Shown here: positions 39,604 through 60,884 of the stretch, one piece after another
Layout: every line of letters begins with the position of its first letter
Position numbering within the stretch: the stretch's first letter is position 1
DNA from: a virus
Virus record (IMG/VR): IMGVR_UViG_3300023174_000002
Location: 35,209 to 99,208 of that record
Direction: 5' to 3' (one strand)
DNA length: 64,000 bases
Notes under the pieces: model-generated
Database searches by the model: none
Told to the model about the DNA's origin: nothing
What the model saw: only the letters and a program-made list of their open reading frames with translations
Made by a program: the position numbers and the translations under genes

Positions 39604-39743
39604 CATGGACAGAGCAATTACGAAAGGGGAAGCCTACTGACCTTAACTGTGCTTGTTAGCAGTTAATTTAGCAAGCGTCGCAACGCAGGGTTATACGATA
39701 ACTAATCCTGCACGTTAACCTTTATTTACTTTTGGAGAATCGC
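39604..39743 (+). other. Structured leader of the first HTH gene
   Basis: About 140 nt between the predicted start site and the HTH gene. It holds a mini-ORF (39605-39640) and a hairpin around GTTAT-ACG-ATAAC with GCAGG / CCTGC outside. It may be an autoregulatory leader; no known riboswitch is recognised. Confidence 0.4.
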
Positions 39744-40070
39744 ATGGCTGAGAAAGCAATTAACTATACCCCTGAGCAAACTGCCGCGCTTGTTGCTGAC
39801 TATCGCGATGGTATCAGCGTTGAGCAATTGGCAATGCAATTGGGTAAATCGGTACGCTCGATTGTTGCAAAGTTGTCTCGTGAAGGCGTGTATCAGAAAA
39901 AAGAATACAAAACCAAAACGGGTGAAGCCGTGGTTAAAAAGGATTCTGTTGCTGATGCAATTGGCGCAATCTTGCGCTTGCCTGAGAATGACATTGAATC
40001 GCTCACTAAGGCTAATAAGTCAGCATTAAAGGCAATCTTTGATGCATTGGCTAATTCCAAGCCGATTTAA
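39744..40070 (+). CDS. Helix-turn-helix DNA-binding protein, copy 1
   Basis: 108 residues from ATG 39744 (GGAG upstream). The N-terminal half, YTPEQTAALVADYRDGISVEQLAMQLGKSVRSIVAKLSREGVY, is a tri-helical HTH with recognition helix SVRSIVAKL. The C-terminal half (RLPENDIESLTKANKSALKAIFDAL) is a second small helical unit. Copies lie at 44313, 45434 and (minus strand) 46622. This is a small HTH type also seen in other phages, presumably a transcription regulator. Leucine is mostly TTG and never CTA here, unlike the rest of the window. Confidence 0.8.
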   Translation: MAEKAINYTPEQTAALVADYRDGISVEQLAMQLGKSVRSIVAKLSREGVYQKKEYKTKTGEAVVKKDSVADAIGAILRLPENDIESLTKANKSALKAIFDALANSKPI

Positions 40071-44312: not shown

Positions 44313-44639
44313 ATGGCTGAAAAGACTGTGAACTATACCCCTGAGCAAACCCTGAACCTTATTGCCGATTACAAAAACGGTTTTACCGTTGAAGAATTGG
44401 CTTTGCAAATGGGCAAATCGGTTCGCTCAATTGTCGCTAAACTTTCCCGTGAGGGTGTTTACGAAAAGAAAACCTATAAAACCAAAACTGGCGAAAAGGT
44501 TGTTAAAAAAGACGCGCACGCTGATGCAATTGGTGCAATCCTGCGATTGCCGGAAAATGACATTGAATCCCTGACCAAAGCCAATAAATCGGCATTGAAA
44601 GCAATTTTCGACGCATTGGCTAATTCAAAACCCATTTAA
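44313..44639 (+). CDS. Helix-turn-helix DNA-binding protein, copy 2
   Basis: 108 residues, nearly the same protein as the 39744 copy: identical over KSVRSIVAKLSREGVY and over the last 32 residues (RLPENDIESLTK...), with changes in the first helix and linker. Many codons differ although the protein matches, so the copies are not a very recent duplication. CTGGAG precedes ATG 44313. Likely regulator of the same or overlapping operators. Confidence 0.8.
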   Translation: MAEKTVNYTPEQTLNLIADYKNGFTVEELALQMGKSVRSIVAKLSREGVYEKKTYKTKTGEKVVKKDAHADAIGAILRLPENDIESLTKANKSALKAIFDALANSKPI

Positions 44640-45433: not shown

Positions 45434-45742
45434 ATGACTGACAAAACTGTAAATTACACCGCAGAACAAACCGCTCAAATTATCGGACTTTACACCACGG
45501 GTAACTCTGTGGAAATGATCGCCGAGCAGGTTGGCAAATCTGTGCGGTCGATTGTGGCAAAGCTCTCCCGTGAGGGAGTGTACATCCCCAAGACCGCGGC
45601 TAAGGGTCAGGGCCGGGTTACCAAGGCCGACCTGATCGGTCGCCTTGCCAACAAGTTTGCGATTGACGCTACCGAAATCGCTAGCCTTGAAAAAGCTGGT
45701 ATGGGTGCCCTAGAGCTCTTGGTATCCAAAGCCGGGGCATGA
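45434..45742 (+). CDS. Helix-turn-helix DNA-binding protein, copy 3
   Basis: 102 residues from ATG 45434 (AAAGGA 6 bases upstream). NYTAEQTAQIIGLYTTGNSVEMIAEQVGKSVRSIVAKLSREGVY keeps the recognition helix of the other copies exactly. The linker and C-terminal half differ (GRVTKADLIGRLANKFAIDATEIASLEKAG). The gene is clearly more GC-rich in third positions than copies 1 and 2, pointing to separate acquisition. It is the last gene before the candidate large RNA. Confidence 0.8.
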   Translation: MTDKTVNYTAEQTAQIIGLYTTGNSVEMIAEQVGKSVRSIVAKLSREGVYIPKTAAKGQGRVTKADLIGRLANKFAIDATEIASLEKAGMGALELLVSKAGA

Positions 45743-45767: not shown

Positions 45768-45796
45768 TTGATTCTTCTCCCCAAACCCTGTATAAT
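45768..45796 (+). promoter_or_regulatory. Promoter of the large candidate RNA
   Basis: TTGATT (45768-45773), 17 bp, TATAAT (45791-45796). A hairpin GGGGAGAAGAA / TTCTTCTCCCC spans 45748-45783 and overlaps the -35 region. Confidence 0.75.
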
Positions 45797-45803
45797 ATTA
45801 TTA

Positions 45804-46447
45804 TAGACAGTTAGGAAAGAGCTTATCTGAAAGGACAAAGCGCAGATACCGGCATCACGTACCACTACCCCGCCCGCAAGCATATGTATAGCTAGCAATT
45901 TGTAGTGCCAAGTACACGGCCGACGACTGTTTGTCTCAGTGGGTGACAGCGGCGCGTTACATATGCTGGCGTCTTAATTGTGGGGAATTTATGTTAAAGC
46001 CGAGCCACAGCCCTGAGCAGTTTACTCGATTTGTGATTTTAGTCACAAGTCTATTTTAGTGGCTAGTCTATTTTATTAGCTAGTCTTTTTACGAAATCCT
46101 GGACCCTAAGGTTCGCAACCCAGATGGCTACCAGGTGGTTGTAAATACCAAAACTTACCAAGTTGTCTAGAACTTGTAAATAACTTAGACAGTGTTCTTC
46201 CGGGACTTTACGAGAAGTGTGCAACTAGAGCAGTGCTGTCTAGCGGTTAGGCCCGCTAGTAAAAATATAGGCCCAGGGTTGATGACGTAGTGTGCTAGCG
46301 TTTGCGCTAGTTGCTCTGCCAGACCCTACCGCGGAATGACAGGTCGCTGTAGCAGACAAGCTCTGTGAAAACCACGTCAAACCTGCATTAAAAACTTCTC
46401 GAGAGTTCAAAAACCCGCAAGGCGACGGCCTTTGGCGGGTTTTTGTT
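45804..46447 (+). ncRNA. Candidate ~640-nt structured noncoding RNA
   Basis: A unit bounded by a sigma70 promoter and a strong terminator (46411-46447) with no convincing ORF; the longest plus-strand candidate with a ribosome site has 22 codons at 45991. Strong pairing is visible: CGCC-GCATATGTA (45871-45888) with TACATATGC-GGCG (45958-45971), TTGTGA / TCACAA near 46032-46049, TGTCTA / TAGACA near 46163-46192, TAGCGG / CCGCTA near 46241-46258, and CTAGCG / CGCTAG near 46296-46310. Composition is more GC-rich than the flanks. Large ornate phage RNAs such as GOLLD and ROOL are similar in size; I cannot assign this to either. Confidence 0.55.
46411..46447 (+). terminator. Terminator of the candidate RNA
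   Basis: AAACCCGC / GCGGGTTT stem (46411-46418, 46435-46442) with an inner AAGGC / GCCTT stem, followed by TTTTTGTTT. Confidence 0.9.
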
Positions 46448-46489: not shown

Positions 46490-46518
46490 ATTATACAGTG
46501 CTAAATCTAATTTGTCAA
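46490..46518 (-). promoter_or_regulatory. Antisense promoter facing the candidate RNA
   Basis: Minus strand TTGACA (46513-46518), 17 bp, TATAAT (46490-46495), 45 bases past the RNA terminator and pointing into it. It could make an antisense RNA to the 3' part. Confidence 0.7.
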
Positions 46519-46567
46519 CAGTAAATTTTTATTTCTGACCCTAAGCCACAGCAAGCAGTCACCCAAC

Positions 46568-46600: not shown

Positions 46601-46621
46601 GATTTAGGGTCAGATTTGAGA

Positions 46622-46942
46622 TTATTGAGGATTTGGGCAGTTTTGGTGACTTAAACGGGTTTCTATAACCTGAAGAATACCTTTATTCACCTTTTCCAGA
46701 CTTTCTAGAAGTTCTGGGTTCATATTTAAGAGCTTAGCAATGTTTTCTATGTGCTCTGACTTTTTAGTAGGTACTTCACCACGCTTGTTCAAGTAGGCTT
46801 TTTTCTGGTAGACACCTAAACTTGAGAGCTTAGCAATGATACTACGCTCCGGCACCTCCAGCTCCTGTGCAATTTTTTGGACGTGAACGCCGGTTTTGTA
46901 TTGCTCTATAAGACGGTCAGTAATTTCTTTAGTATATTTCAA
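46622..46942 (-). CDS. Helix-turn-helix DNA-binding protein, copy 4
   Basis: 106 residues from TTG 46942, chosen because AAGGAG lies six bases upstream and the length then matches the other copies. LKYTKEITDRLIEQYKTGVHVQKIAQELEVPERSIIAKLSSLGVYQKKAY is clearly related to the plus-strand copies (RSIIAKLS-GVY), as is the C-terminal LLNMNPELLESLEKVNKGILQVIE. It is the most diverged copy and is read in the opposite direction. Use of TTG start is unusual. Confidence 0.75.
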   Translation of the reverse strand: MKYTKEITDRLIEQYKTGVHVQKIAQELEVPERSIIAKLSSLGVYQKKAYLNKRGEVPTKKSEHIENIAKLLNMNPELLESLEKVNKGILQVIETRLSHQNCPNPQ

Positions 46943-46952
46943 GTTGGTCTCC

Positions 46953-47717
46953 TTAATTCCACGGTAAATCAACGACCCTATCAGCTAAGGGTTGCTGCAC
47001 TTGTTGTGGGTGAAAAATCTCTGAGTCTACTAGTGGTTTGGGCATCATATCCCAATTTTTAGGGTCTAGGATCATTAATTCGGTCCTAAGGCTGGGGTGA
47101 GCTACCCAAATCTGTGTAAGCATGGTGACTGCCAGCTTAGGCAGCCCAAAAAGCTCAGTGTCCTGAATGCCTGTTAGGGTCCACTTGCTGGTAGCCTTTT
47201 GCACACTACCAGCTTTGGCTCCGCTTTTGACTGTTAAACCCTGTTCTCTGATCTCCAGCAAACGCTCTGACCCTAAATCAGGGCACTGAGTAAACATTGC
47301 TTCCAGCAATTCCTGGTGTACCAGTTTAGTGTCTGGATTGAGCTGCCAAGCACTGTAAGGCACACTTTGATAGCGTTTGACCCCTGCTAGGATGACCGGA
47401 ACTAGTTGACTGCAATTAACACCAACGGGGCTACCCTGCAGTTTAACCAAACTGCCACGTTTTAGCTTAGTCACTACCCGCCACAAACCCATGTGCCAGG
47501 CTGTAGTAATATTCTGCTTGGCTGTTTCTTGCGGTAGTACTAAGCCCTGATCGTTGCGTATCAATTTCCAGCTACCATAGTGTGCTAGGATTTGTGGCAG
47601 CATCCAGCTGTTAAAATTTTGTAAGCCGTGTTTTTCTGCTAGGGCTTCTAGTGAGATGGCGTCTGCGTATTCTTCGAATGGAAATTCATCTATGTGCTGT
47701 TGTTTTAGTTTAAACAT
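46953..47717 (-). CDS. Hypothetical protein, 254 residues
   Basis: No recognised domain. N-terminal EYADAISLEALAEKHGLQNFNSW looks helical, followed by mixed alpha/beta sequence. It precedes HTH copy 4 by 10 bases and is preceded by a 250-nt leader with a giant hairpin, so it may be regulated at RNA level. The longest unknown gene of the leftward accessory block. Confidence 0.65.
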   Translation of the reverse strand: MFKLKQQHIDEFPFEEYADAISLEALAEKHGLQNFNSWMLPQILAHYGSWKLIRNDQGLVLPQETAKQNITTAWHMGLWRVVTKLKRGSLVKLQGSPVGVNCSQLVPVILAGVKRYQSVPYSAWQLNPDTKLVHQELLEAMFTQCPDLGSERLLEIREQGLTVKSGAKAGSVQKATSKWTLTGIQDTELFGLPKLAVTMLTQIWVAHPSLRTELMILDPKNWDMMPKPLVDSEIFHPQQVQQPLADRVVDLPWN

Positions 47718-56948: not shown

Positions 56949-57152
56949 ATGGCAGGTTATACCCGCAATTTTTTGATTGATGTTGCACTACACCGATACC
57001 ACATTCTTAATCTTTCAGCAGAAGAACAGGCCAAAGATCGTGCTAGATGTGAACTTACTTATGATAAGTACGGCAAAGATAAATTTCGTGAGTATACTTG
57101 CGTAACTCCACAAGCAATTCGTGATTATAAAGCCTACCTAAAAAATGTTTAA
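56949..57152 (+). CDS. Small hypothetical protein
   Basis: 67 residues from ATG 56949 (GGAG upstream; an ATG four codons earlier is upstream of that spacing). Helical and charged (EEQAKDRARCELTYDKYGKDKF). Overlaps uvdE by eight bases. Unknown. Confidence 0.6.
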   Translation: MAGYTRNFLIDVALHRYHILNLSAEEQAKDRARCELTYDKYGKDKFREYTCVTPQAIRDYKAYLKNV

Positions 57153-58158
57153 TCAAAACGTCAAACGCATTGGTTTTGCTTGCAAAATCCAAGAATCTCA
57201 AGGCAAAGCCAATCCTAGCCTAAATACTAAAACTACTACTCTTACTTGGCTTAACAAGCAGACTAAACACGTTGCAGTAGAACGACTACACGATATTGCT
57301 AAACACAATATTCAAATTTTGCAACGTCAAATGACTTGGCTTGCTGCTAGCCCGCCACACCTACGTATGTTTCGTATGAGCAGCGACCTGCTGCCAGCAT
57401 ATACTCACGAAGACTGGACTTGGGCCTACTTTGATCAAGACATGGTTAATCTACTTAGTACCGGCTTTGCCAAAGTAGGCGAGCTGGCTCGCAAACACGA
57501 TATTAAGATTAGTTTTCATCCAGGTCAGTTTTGTGTGCTAGCTAGTGAAAATCCTAACGTAGTGGAAAATTCAATTCAAGAGTTCGAGTATCACTGCGAC
57601 ATAATCCGCTACATGGGATATGGCCAACAATTTCAAGACTTTAAATGCAATGTTCACATTGGCGGCAAGCTAGGTCCACAAGGTATCAAAGCTGTGCTGC
57701 CTAAACTCAGCCGCGAAGCACGTAACACTTTGACCATTGAAAATGCAGAGTATACTTGGGGTCTTGATGCTAGTCTTGAACTAGTCAAAGATTGTGCACT
57801 AGTGCTTGACATACATCATCACTGGATTAATACTGGCAAGTACATTGAGCCTACCGACCCTAAGGTAATGCAAGTTATTGATAGCTGGCGCGGCGTTAGA
57901 CCTACACTACACTACAGTGTTAGCCGTGAAGATGTACTAGTAGATCACGATACCACAACCATGCCGTGTCTACATCAACTAAAACAACAGGGGTTTACCA
58001 GTGCCAAGCTTAGAGCTCATAGTGATTATTATTGGAATCAAGCTGTTAACGCTTGGGCCAGCAGCTTTCTGGACAATTTCGACATTATGTGCGAGTCGAA
58101 AGAAAAAAACTTAGCCAGCCATGAGTTTGCAAAATCTGCACTTGATTTTGCAAGCTAA
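57145..58158 (+). CDS. uvsE: UV damage endonuclease UvdE/UvsE
   Basis: 337 residues, full family length. TIM-barrel motifs: RIGFACK, FRMSSDLLP, KISFHPGQFCVLAS, CNVHIGG, LTIENAE, LVLDIHHHWIN and RAHSDYYW. His, Glu and Asp metal ligands of the family are visible in these. It nicks 5' to UV photoproducts for repair. A phage copy fits an environment exposed to sunlight. Confidence 0.93.
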   Translation: MFNQNVKRIGFACKIQESQGKANPSLNTKTTTLTWLNKQTKHVAVERLHDIAKHNIQILQRQMTWLAASPPHLRMFRMSSDLLPAYTHEDWTWAYFDQDMVNLLSTGFAKVGELARKHDIKISFHPGQFCVLASENPNVVENSIQEFEYHCDIIRYMGYGQQFQDFKCNVHIGGKLGPQGIKAVLPKLSREARNTLTIENAEYTWGLDASLELVKDCALVLDIHHHWINTGKYIEPTDPKVMQVIDSWRGVRPTLHYSVSREDVLVDHDTTTMPCLHQLKQQGFTSAKLRAHSDYYWNQAVNAWASSFLDNFDIMCESKEKNLASHEFAKSALDFAS

Positions 58159-60677: not shown

Positions 60678-60884
60678 ATGAAAAACCCTTTAGCACCTCA
60701 AAATGCACAACCTATGGGCACACCTTTTGAAGAAGGTCAAGCCGATCAAATTGACCCTAAAACAGGGCGAGATCCCAGCGACATTACTCCGGGCGGTGCA
60801 GAAACCATGCAAGTTAATATTGTTAATCGTAGCGAGCATATTACACACGACGGCGACATGGGTCGTTTAGGCCAGAGCGAATAA
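60678..60884 (+). CDS. Small hypothetical protein
   Basis: 68 residues, Pro/Gly/Asp-rich and probably disordered (PFEEGQADQIDPKTGRDPSD). CAGGAG precedes the ATG. Unknown. Confidence 0.55.
   Translation: MKNPLAPQNAQPMGTPFEEGQADQIDPKTGRDPSDITPGGAETMQVNIVNRSEHITHDGDMGRLGQSE

Follow-up and report, generated by a model that had tools for sequence, protein, structure and literature searches.

A predicted modular family of large structured RNAs in a T5-like phage and its relatives

The locus and its gene ends

The window analysed here is a stretch of 64,000 nucleotides (bases 35209-99208 of a viral contig), and its source is, judging from its terminase and D5-like HTH proteins, a T5-like phage. Identity between the terminase and its counterparts in Vibrio T5-like phages is 49%, and the HTH proteins encoded around the RNA region match D5-like DNA-binding families. 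One of these genes (45434-45742, plus strand; phrog_1725 / phrog_323) is the upstream neighbour of the RNA and lies outside it; its product is 91% identical in L008 and 79% in L077, two of the related sequences, and had no match at E 0.01 among cultured phages. The window contains four or more small HTH genes that resemble each other (39732-40070, 44313-44639, 45434-45742 and 46622-46972), and in most relatives the RNA is flanked by two plus-strand HTH copies and one minus-strand copy. A TTTAGGGTCA-like motif has 15 matches in the window with at most one mismatch, against 4.8 expected (for example 46536-46545, 46603-46612, 47268-47277 and 60752-60761). In relatives the motif is found beside genes, promoters and the RNA, often as inverted pairs, and it is perhaps a candidate operator for the HTH proteins.

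Downstream of this HTH gene the initial annotation had placed a candidate non-coding structured RNA of about 640 nt of the GOLLD/ROOL kind, bounded by a promoter and a strong terminator and lacking a convincing ORF, and both ends and the coding status were borne out. The sigma-70-type promoter (TTGATT-17-TATAAT; 45768-45796, plus strand) matches the consensus at 10 of 12 positions, and of 46 distinct units 41 have a promoter at the matching place, ahead of the 5' domain, D1; several of those that lack one are incomplete. The intrinsic terminator (46408-46447, plus strand), a hairpin with T runs on both strands and hence bidirectional, is kept in 4/4 close sequences. It is directly preceded by a small hairpin (AACU..AGUU; 46394-46407, plus strand), a segment also matched in L015 and L069, in which the inner sequence varies while pairing is mostly kept. 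The longest ORFs with ATG, GTG or TTG starts that lie wholly within the unit encode 42-53 aa. Every frame has at least six stops in the window, L008, L077 and L139, and indels of 1, 2 and 4 nt are common among these four. The GC excess that had been claimed holds against the flanks (0.470 versus 0.41-0.42), but the adjoining HTH gene is richer still (0.53). The antisense promoter reported at 46490 is a perfect one (TTGACA-17-TATAAT, 12/12; 46518-46490, minus strand) and faces the terminator; similar sequences were seen by eye in relatives. Another perfect minus-strand TTGACA/TATAAT promoter is situated at 45154-45125, and neither of the two has an obvious gene directly after it.

Conserved structure of the region

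The stems of the region had also been offered as support, and here the outcome was different. Stems and folding energy alone are not unusual: the z score of the region is -3.7 with 20 shuffles and -2.7 with 60 dinucleotide shuffles, it is -0.8 when the terminator is removed, and 14 other 644-nt tiles of the window have a mean z of -3.5. As the region is not singled out among the tiles, the case cannot rest on predicted folding, and folding energy was rejected as evidence. The long-range pairing of the initial annotation, a 10-bp helix of AGCAUAUGUA with UACAUAUGCU, does exist in the window sequence, where it beats 1000 of 1000 shuffles, but in the relatives it is at chance level (p 0.58 in L008, 0.17 in L077 and 0.21 in L139). 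It was set aside as unconserved and is also in competition with P2b, a local hairpin of domain D2 that is conserved.

Comparison with relatives was more informative. These were collected from IMG/VR as homologues of the upstream HTH protein, and the region was compared by blastn. Near full-length matches were obtained in L008 and L077, and in dozens of other relatives short stretches matched at two constant positions: the promoter together with the 5' end, and the block 45940-46019, which lies about 230-380 nt past the HTH stop codon in relatives. Within this block is D2 (45941-46013, plus strand), a 73-nt three-way junction composed of P1 (GGGU/GCCC), P2a (GAC/GUC), the hairpin P2b, a linker (UUAAUU) and P3 (GUGG/CCAC). 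Among 27 diverse sequences D2 has 37 invariant columns; the window copy scores 67 bits with covariance model R1, the window itself being one of the 27 training rows of that model. P1 is GGGC in some sequences, and P2a is GUC/GAC in L060. A GCG/CGU register for P2 proposed by RNAalifold was dropped in favour of GAC/GUC because in L060 both strands of GAC/GUC are changed. The P2b hairpin varies freely in both sequence and length, its 43 variants being unrelated in sequence with a mean z of -2.07.

A structure search anchored on the linker returned 78 matches, of which 76 were in place across 55 units, compared with 0.025 per shuffled unit; the two out of place (position 1100 of L077 and position 1416 of L139) look like chance. 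Most units contain D3, a diverged second copy of the junction that the D2 covariance model detects weakly. In the 76 instances of D2 and D3 taken together, all three helices have changes on both sides and several pair types occur at nearly all P1, P2a and P3 positions. P2a alone was found as GAC/GUC, GUU/AAC, UAA/UUA, AAA/UUU, GGA/UCC and GUA/UAC, and P3 has many pairs. Since the search demanded pairing, the raw pair counts lean toward structure, and the shuffle rate serves as the control.

For the structure outside D1, D2 and the terminator we relied on the four close sequences only (the window, L008, L077 and L139), which are 79-89% identical. RNAalifold predicted 149 pairs for this set, 13 of them with changes on both sides; the window and L139, and likewise L008 and L077, often share states, so that there are fewer independent events than 13 pairs. 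With the 76 junction instances and their three helices, these pairs supply the covariation in relatives that the initial annotation had named as a check. In the surroundings of D1 and D2 parts of the RNAalifold consensus conflict with the D2 fold supported by the wider family, and there we relied on that fold. D1 (45804-45936, plus strand; AGACAGUUAGGAAAG ... CGACUGUUUGUCU) is closed by the helix ACAGU/ACUGU and contains an inner arm (45850-45922) in which A-U to G-C, C-G to U-A and U-A to G-C replacements occur among close relatives. In relatives the closing helix takes the forms ACAGUCG/CGACUGU, CCAGUCG/CGAUUGG, CCAAUCG/CGAUUGG and AGUUUGG/CCAAACU. A 7-bp partner for D1 is found in about 9% of shuffles, which makes single cases weak, and it is the consistent placement within each subtype that counts as evidence.

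After D2 the window copy carries an AT-rich insert of about 66 nt with TAGTCTATTTTA-like repeats (46027-46091, plus strand), which is missing in its three closest relatives and was seen in no other copy of the RNA; in L077 similar repeats occur outside the RNA, downstream of the terminator. Two stem-loops follow on the plus strand, CCUGG/CCAGG in the middle region (46098-46135), kept in close relatives, and UUAC AAGUU / AACUU GUAA (46155-46179), invariant in them. The 3' domain (46189-46350, plus strand) is closed by a covarying long-range helix spanning 150 nt, ACAGUG (46189-46194) with CGCUGU (46345-46350), which in L008 and L077 is ACGGUA/UACCGU. It encloses an inner stem-loop (46240-46259) that occurs as CUAGCGG/CCGCUAG and CCAGCGG/CCGCUGG.

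Distribution and exchange of modules

The exact D2 pattern is present in 54 IMG/VR stretches and was not found in GTDB genomes, and blastn of the region DNA against cultured phages gave no match. D2 is single copy in 15 of the 17 records that were searched whole. In most stretches it lies between plus-strand and minus-strand D5-like HTH genes, and in L097, L106, L114, L117, L123 and L141 the unit is located elsewhere. L103 and L131 start within the unit, so their coverage begins there. In several relatives the unit is near a UV-endonuclease gene rather than HTH genes; in the window a UV-damage endonuclease gene is found at 57145-58158. In the cultured Vibrio phage X1 there are only weak D2-like matches, located in coding genes; one of them (16 bits; L145:1586-1501), on a gene's minus strand, is probably due to chance.

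From promoter to terminator the units span 568-1524 nt, with 647 nt in the window and about 870-1500 nt in most relatives. Parts can be absent or added: L016 is without D2, and in L027 D2 is inserted between the neighbours that adjoin each other in L016. A tRNA-Glu (TTC) lies within the unit at no fewer than nine loci (L010, L012, L036, L052, L055, L056, L061, L069 and L071), and its place varies between the gap separating the second module from the hammerhead motif described below and a position between the two modules. A second promoter is found 9-49 nt upstream of D2 in 38 of 46 units, and a promoter also precedes the hammerhead motif in L097 and L103. The promoter before D2 is missing from the window, L008, L077, L139 and L027, where D1 continues straight into D2. 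Because of its absence, one transcript is the simplest reading of the window unit; the long relatives may make a single large RNA, or else RNAs that are nested or separate. As it has no hammerhead, tRNA or second module, the window copy represents a minimal subtype.

The hammerhead motif of relatives has a type I core (CUGAUGAG, a covarying stem II, CGAAA and stem III) and, paired in stem I, a UH cleavage site. Under a strict rule (CUGAUGA...GAAA core, all of stems I-III, and UH preceding the site of cleavage) it was detected in 19 of 46 units as against 3 of 1800 shuffles, and the core is present in 30 of the 39 complete units. Examples are L016:4667-4747, L050, L012, L036 and L064, among some 30 units. 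The Rfam model HH9 finds the identical core and site in L016 (17.2 bits against a cut-off of 52, E 0.041), skipping 43 positions in the alignment, which correspond to a long insert in stem III; it is because of this long stem that these motifs are missed at Rfam cut-offs. In L012 the core alone was matched, by a type III model in another arrangement. From their sequences we regard the motifs as putative type I hammerhead ribozymes. The CUGAUGA...GAAA core is absent in the window, L008, L077 and L139.

Possible functions and relation to known large RNAs

The computational basis consists of gene ends supported by consensus and conservation, non-coding status, homology with covariation, and modular exchange, and we consider the region to be almost certainly a structured RNA gene; on this central point the comparative evidence upholds the initial annotation. 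Several hundred nucleotides long and non-coding, with its own predicted transcription unit and a conserved structure of several domains, the unit has the attributes of a large ornate phage RNA as far as these can be judged from sequence. By the same comparisons it is a member of a previously undescribed modular family whose large folded RNAs occur in dozens of related phages. No published description of such a family was found in a search that took in few subscription papers and preprints.

Rfam scans of the window at gathering and permissive thresholds gave nothing in the region, including for tmRNA, RNase P, OLE, HEARO and 6S, and so the family search that had been suggested, GOLLD and ROOL among its models, ended without a match there; the only Rfam hits in the whole window were three tRNAs at 58-62 kb. 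GOLLD (RF02032, 150-bit cut-off) had no match in the window at either threshold; 17 relatives scanned at gathering and 5 scanned at E<=1 gave none either. It was likewise absent from 18 whole records, and from 14 control genomes, so that the sensitivity of that comparison is not shown. ROOL (RF03087, 99.1-bit cut-off) also had no match, either in the window or in whole records, the control genomes being equally without one.

We propose that the RNA, about 640 nt long, made of several domains and transcribed from its own sigma-70 promoter to its own terminator, would act through its fold, as an abundant structural RNA or an RNA-protein scaffold during infection, and not as an mRNA or a leader. 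The parts of the family would be D1, one or two junction modules (D2/D3), optional tRNA-Glu and type I hammerhead cassettes, and the 3' domain. Cleavage of the primary transcript by the hammerhead would, in relatives, separate the 5' portion, with or without a tRNA, from the 3' portion. By analogy, on account of the size, the origin in phages, the inserted tRNA and the several domains, we give a probability of roughly 0.5 to a large structural RNA working like GOLLD and ROOL.

The promoters that stand directly ahead of D2 (38 of 46 units) and, in two units, ahead of the hammerhead fit equally well with an array of small RNAs made separately. D1, D2 and the modules after them would then each have a promoter and processed ends to themselves and act independently, as regulatory sRNAs or protein decoys; the absence of D2 in L016 and its addition in L027 would also agree with this, and the window copy would be two such RNAs fused. 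Against it, D1 runs into D2 without a second promoter in the window, L008, L077, L139 and L027, and the modules mostly keep their order and share one terminator, none being established between modules. We regard an array as rather unlikely. The position of tRNA-Glu between modules or before the hammerhead, together with the proposal that prophage hammerheads process long transcripts (PMC3088659), could instead mean that the modules and the hammerhead mature or protect the phage tRNA-Glu or flanking transcripts, with tRNA-less copies such as that of the window being remnants. This is improbable, as most units are without a tRNA, D2 is the most conserved part, and the pairing of the window subtype is kept under sequence change, unlike what is expected of a remnant.

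Regulation in cis, as a leader or attenuator or as the 3' UTR of the HTH gene, might be suggested by the position of the unit directly 3' of that gene in most relatives. The unit has its own promoter and a strong terminator, however, with no same-strand gene directly downstream, and it occurs away from HTH genes in L097, L106, L141 and several other contigs, so that it is not the leader of one gene; these exceptions already largely refute such a role, which we hold to be barely credible. The consensus promoter facing the unit could make an antisense RNA that controls the large RNA by pairing to its 3' end, an addition to the structural reading rather than an alternative. With a bidirectional terminator, such a transcript would end after only about 70 nt and overlap with the terminator alone, and the same promoter type occurs elsewhere in the window; control of this kind seems very unlikely.

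If the structural reading is followed further, the family may constitute a novel class of giant and modular RNAs in phages, a lineage beside GOLLD and ROOL that evolves by cassette exchange and in which several promoters and self-cleavage choose the RNA pieces, a view that we put forward tentatively and at slightly less than even odds. To our knowledge, there is only a handful of large structured RNAs without known function in bacteria and phages. GOLLD and ROOL have recently, it is reported, been seen by cryo-EM as oligomeric RNA cages.

The source phage resembles the Demerecviridae (T5-like) in its terminase and D5-like HTH proteins, and D2 was found neither in T5 nor in Vibrio phage D254. 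The hammerheads of relatives share core, stems and UH site with known type I hammerheads of bacteria and phages, and differ in that they lie inside a large structured RNA and not beside genes, and in their long stem III insert. ROOL is of comparable length (a 574-position model), phage-encoded and often near tRNA islands, whereas the new family has no match to its model, as was also true of the controls. GOLLD RNAs, often of 800 nt or more, occur in phages near tRNAs, sometimes with a tRNA in a linker, and their 3' region is conserved and the 5' region less so (PMC12286853). The new family is like GOLLD in being a large non-coding structured phage RNA with a tRNA inside some units, and unlike it in its repeated three-way junctions, the type I hammerhead of most relatives and its several internal promoters. 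If our interpretation is right, T5-like phages encode an unrelated family in the size class of GOLLD and ROOL, and its recognisable modules, presence/absence variants and built-in hammerheads let one ask which parts assembly needs and why phages need such RNAs.
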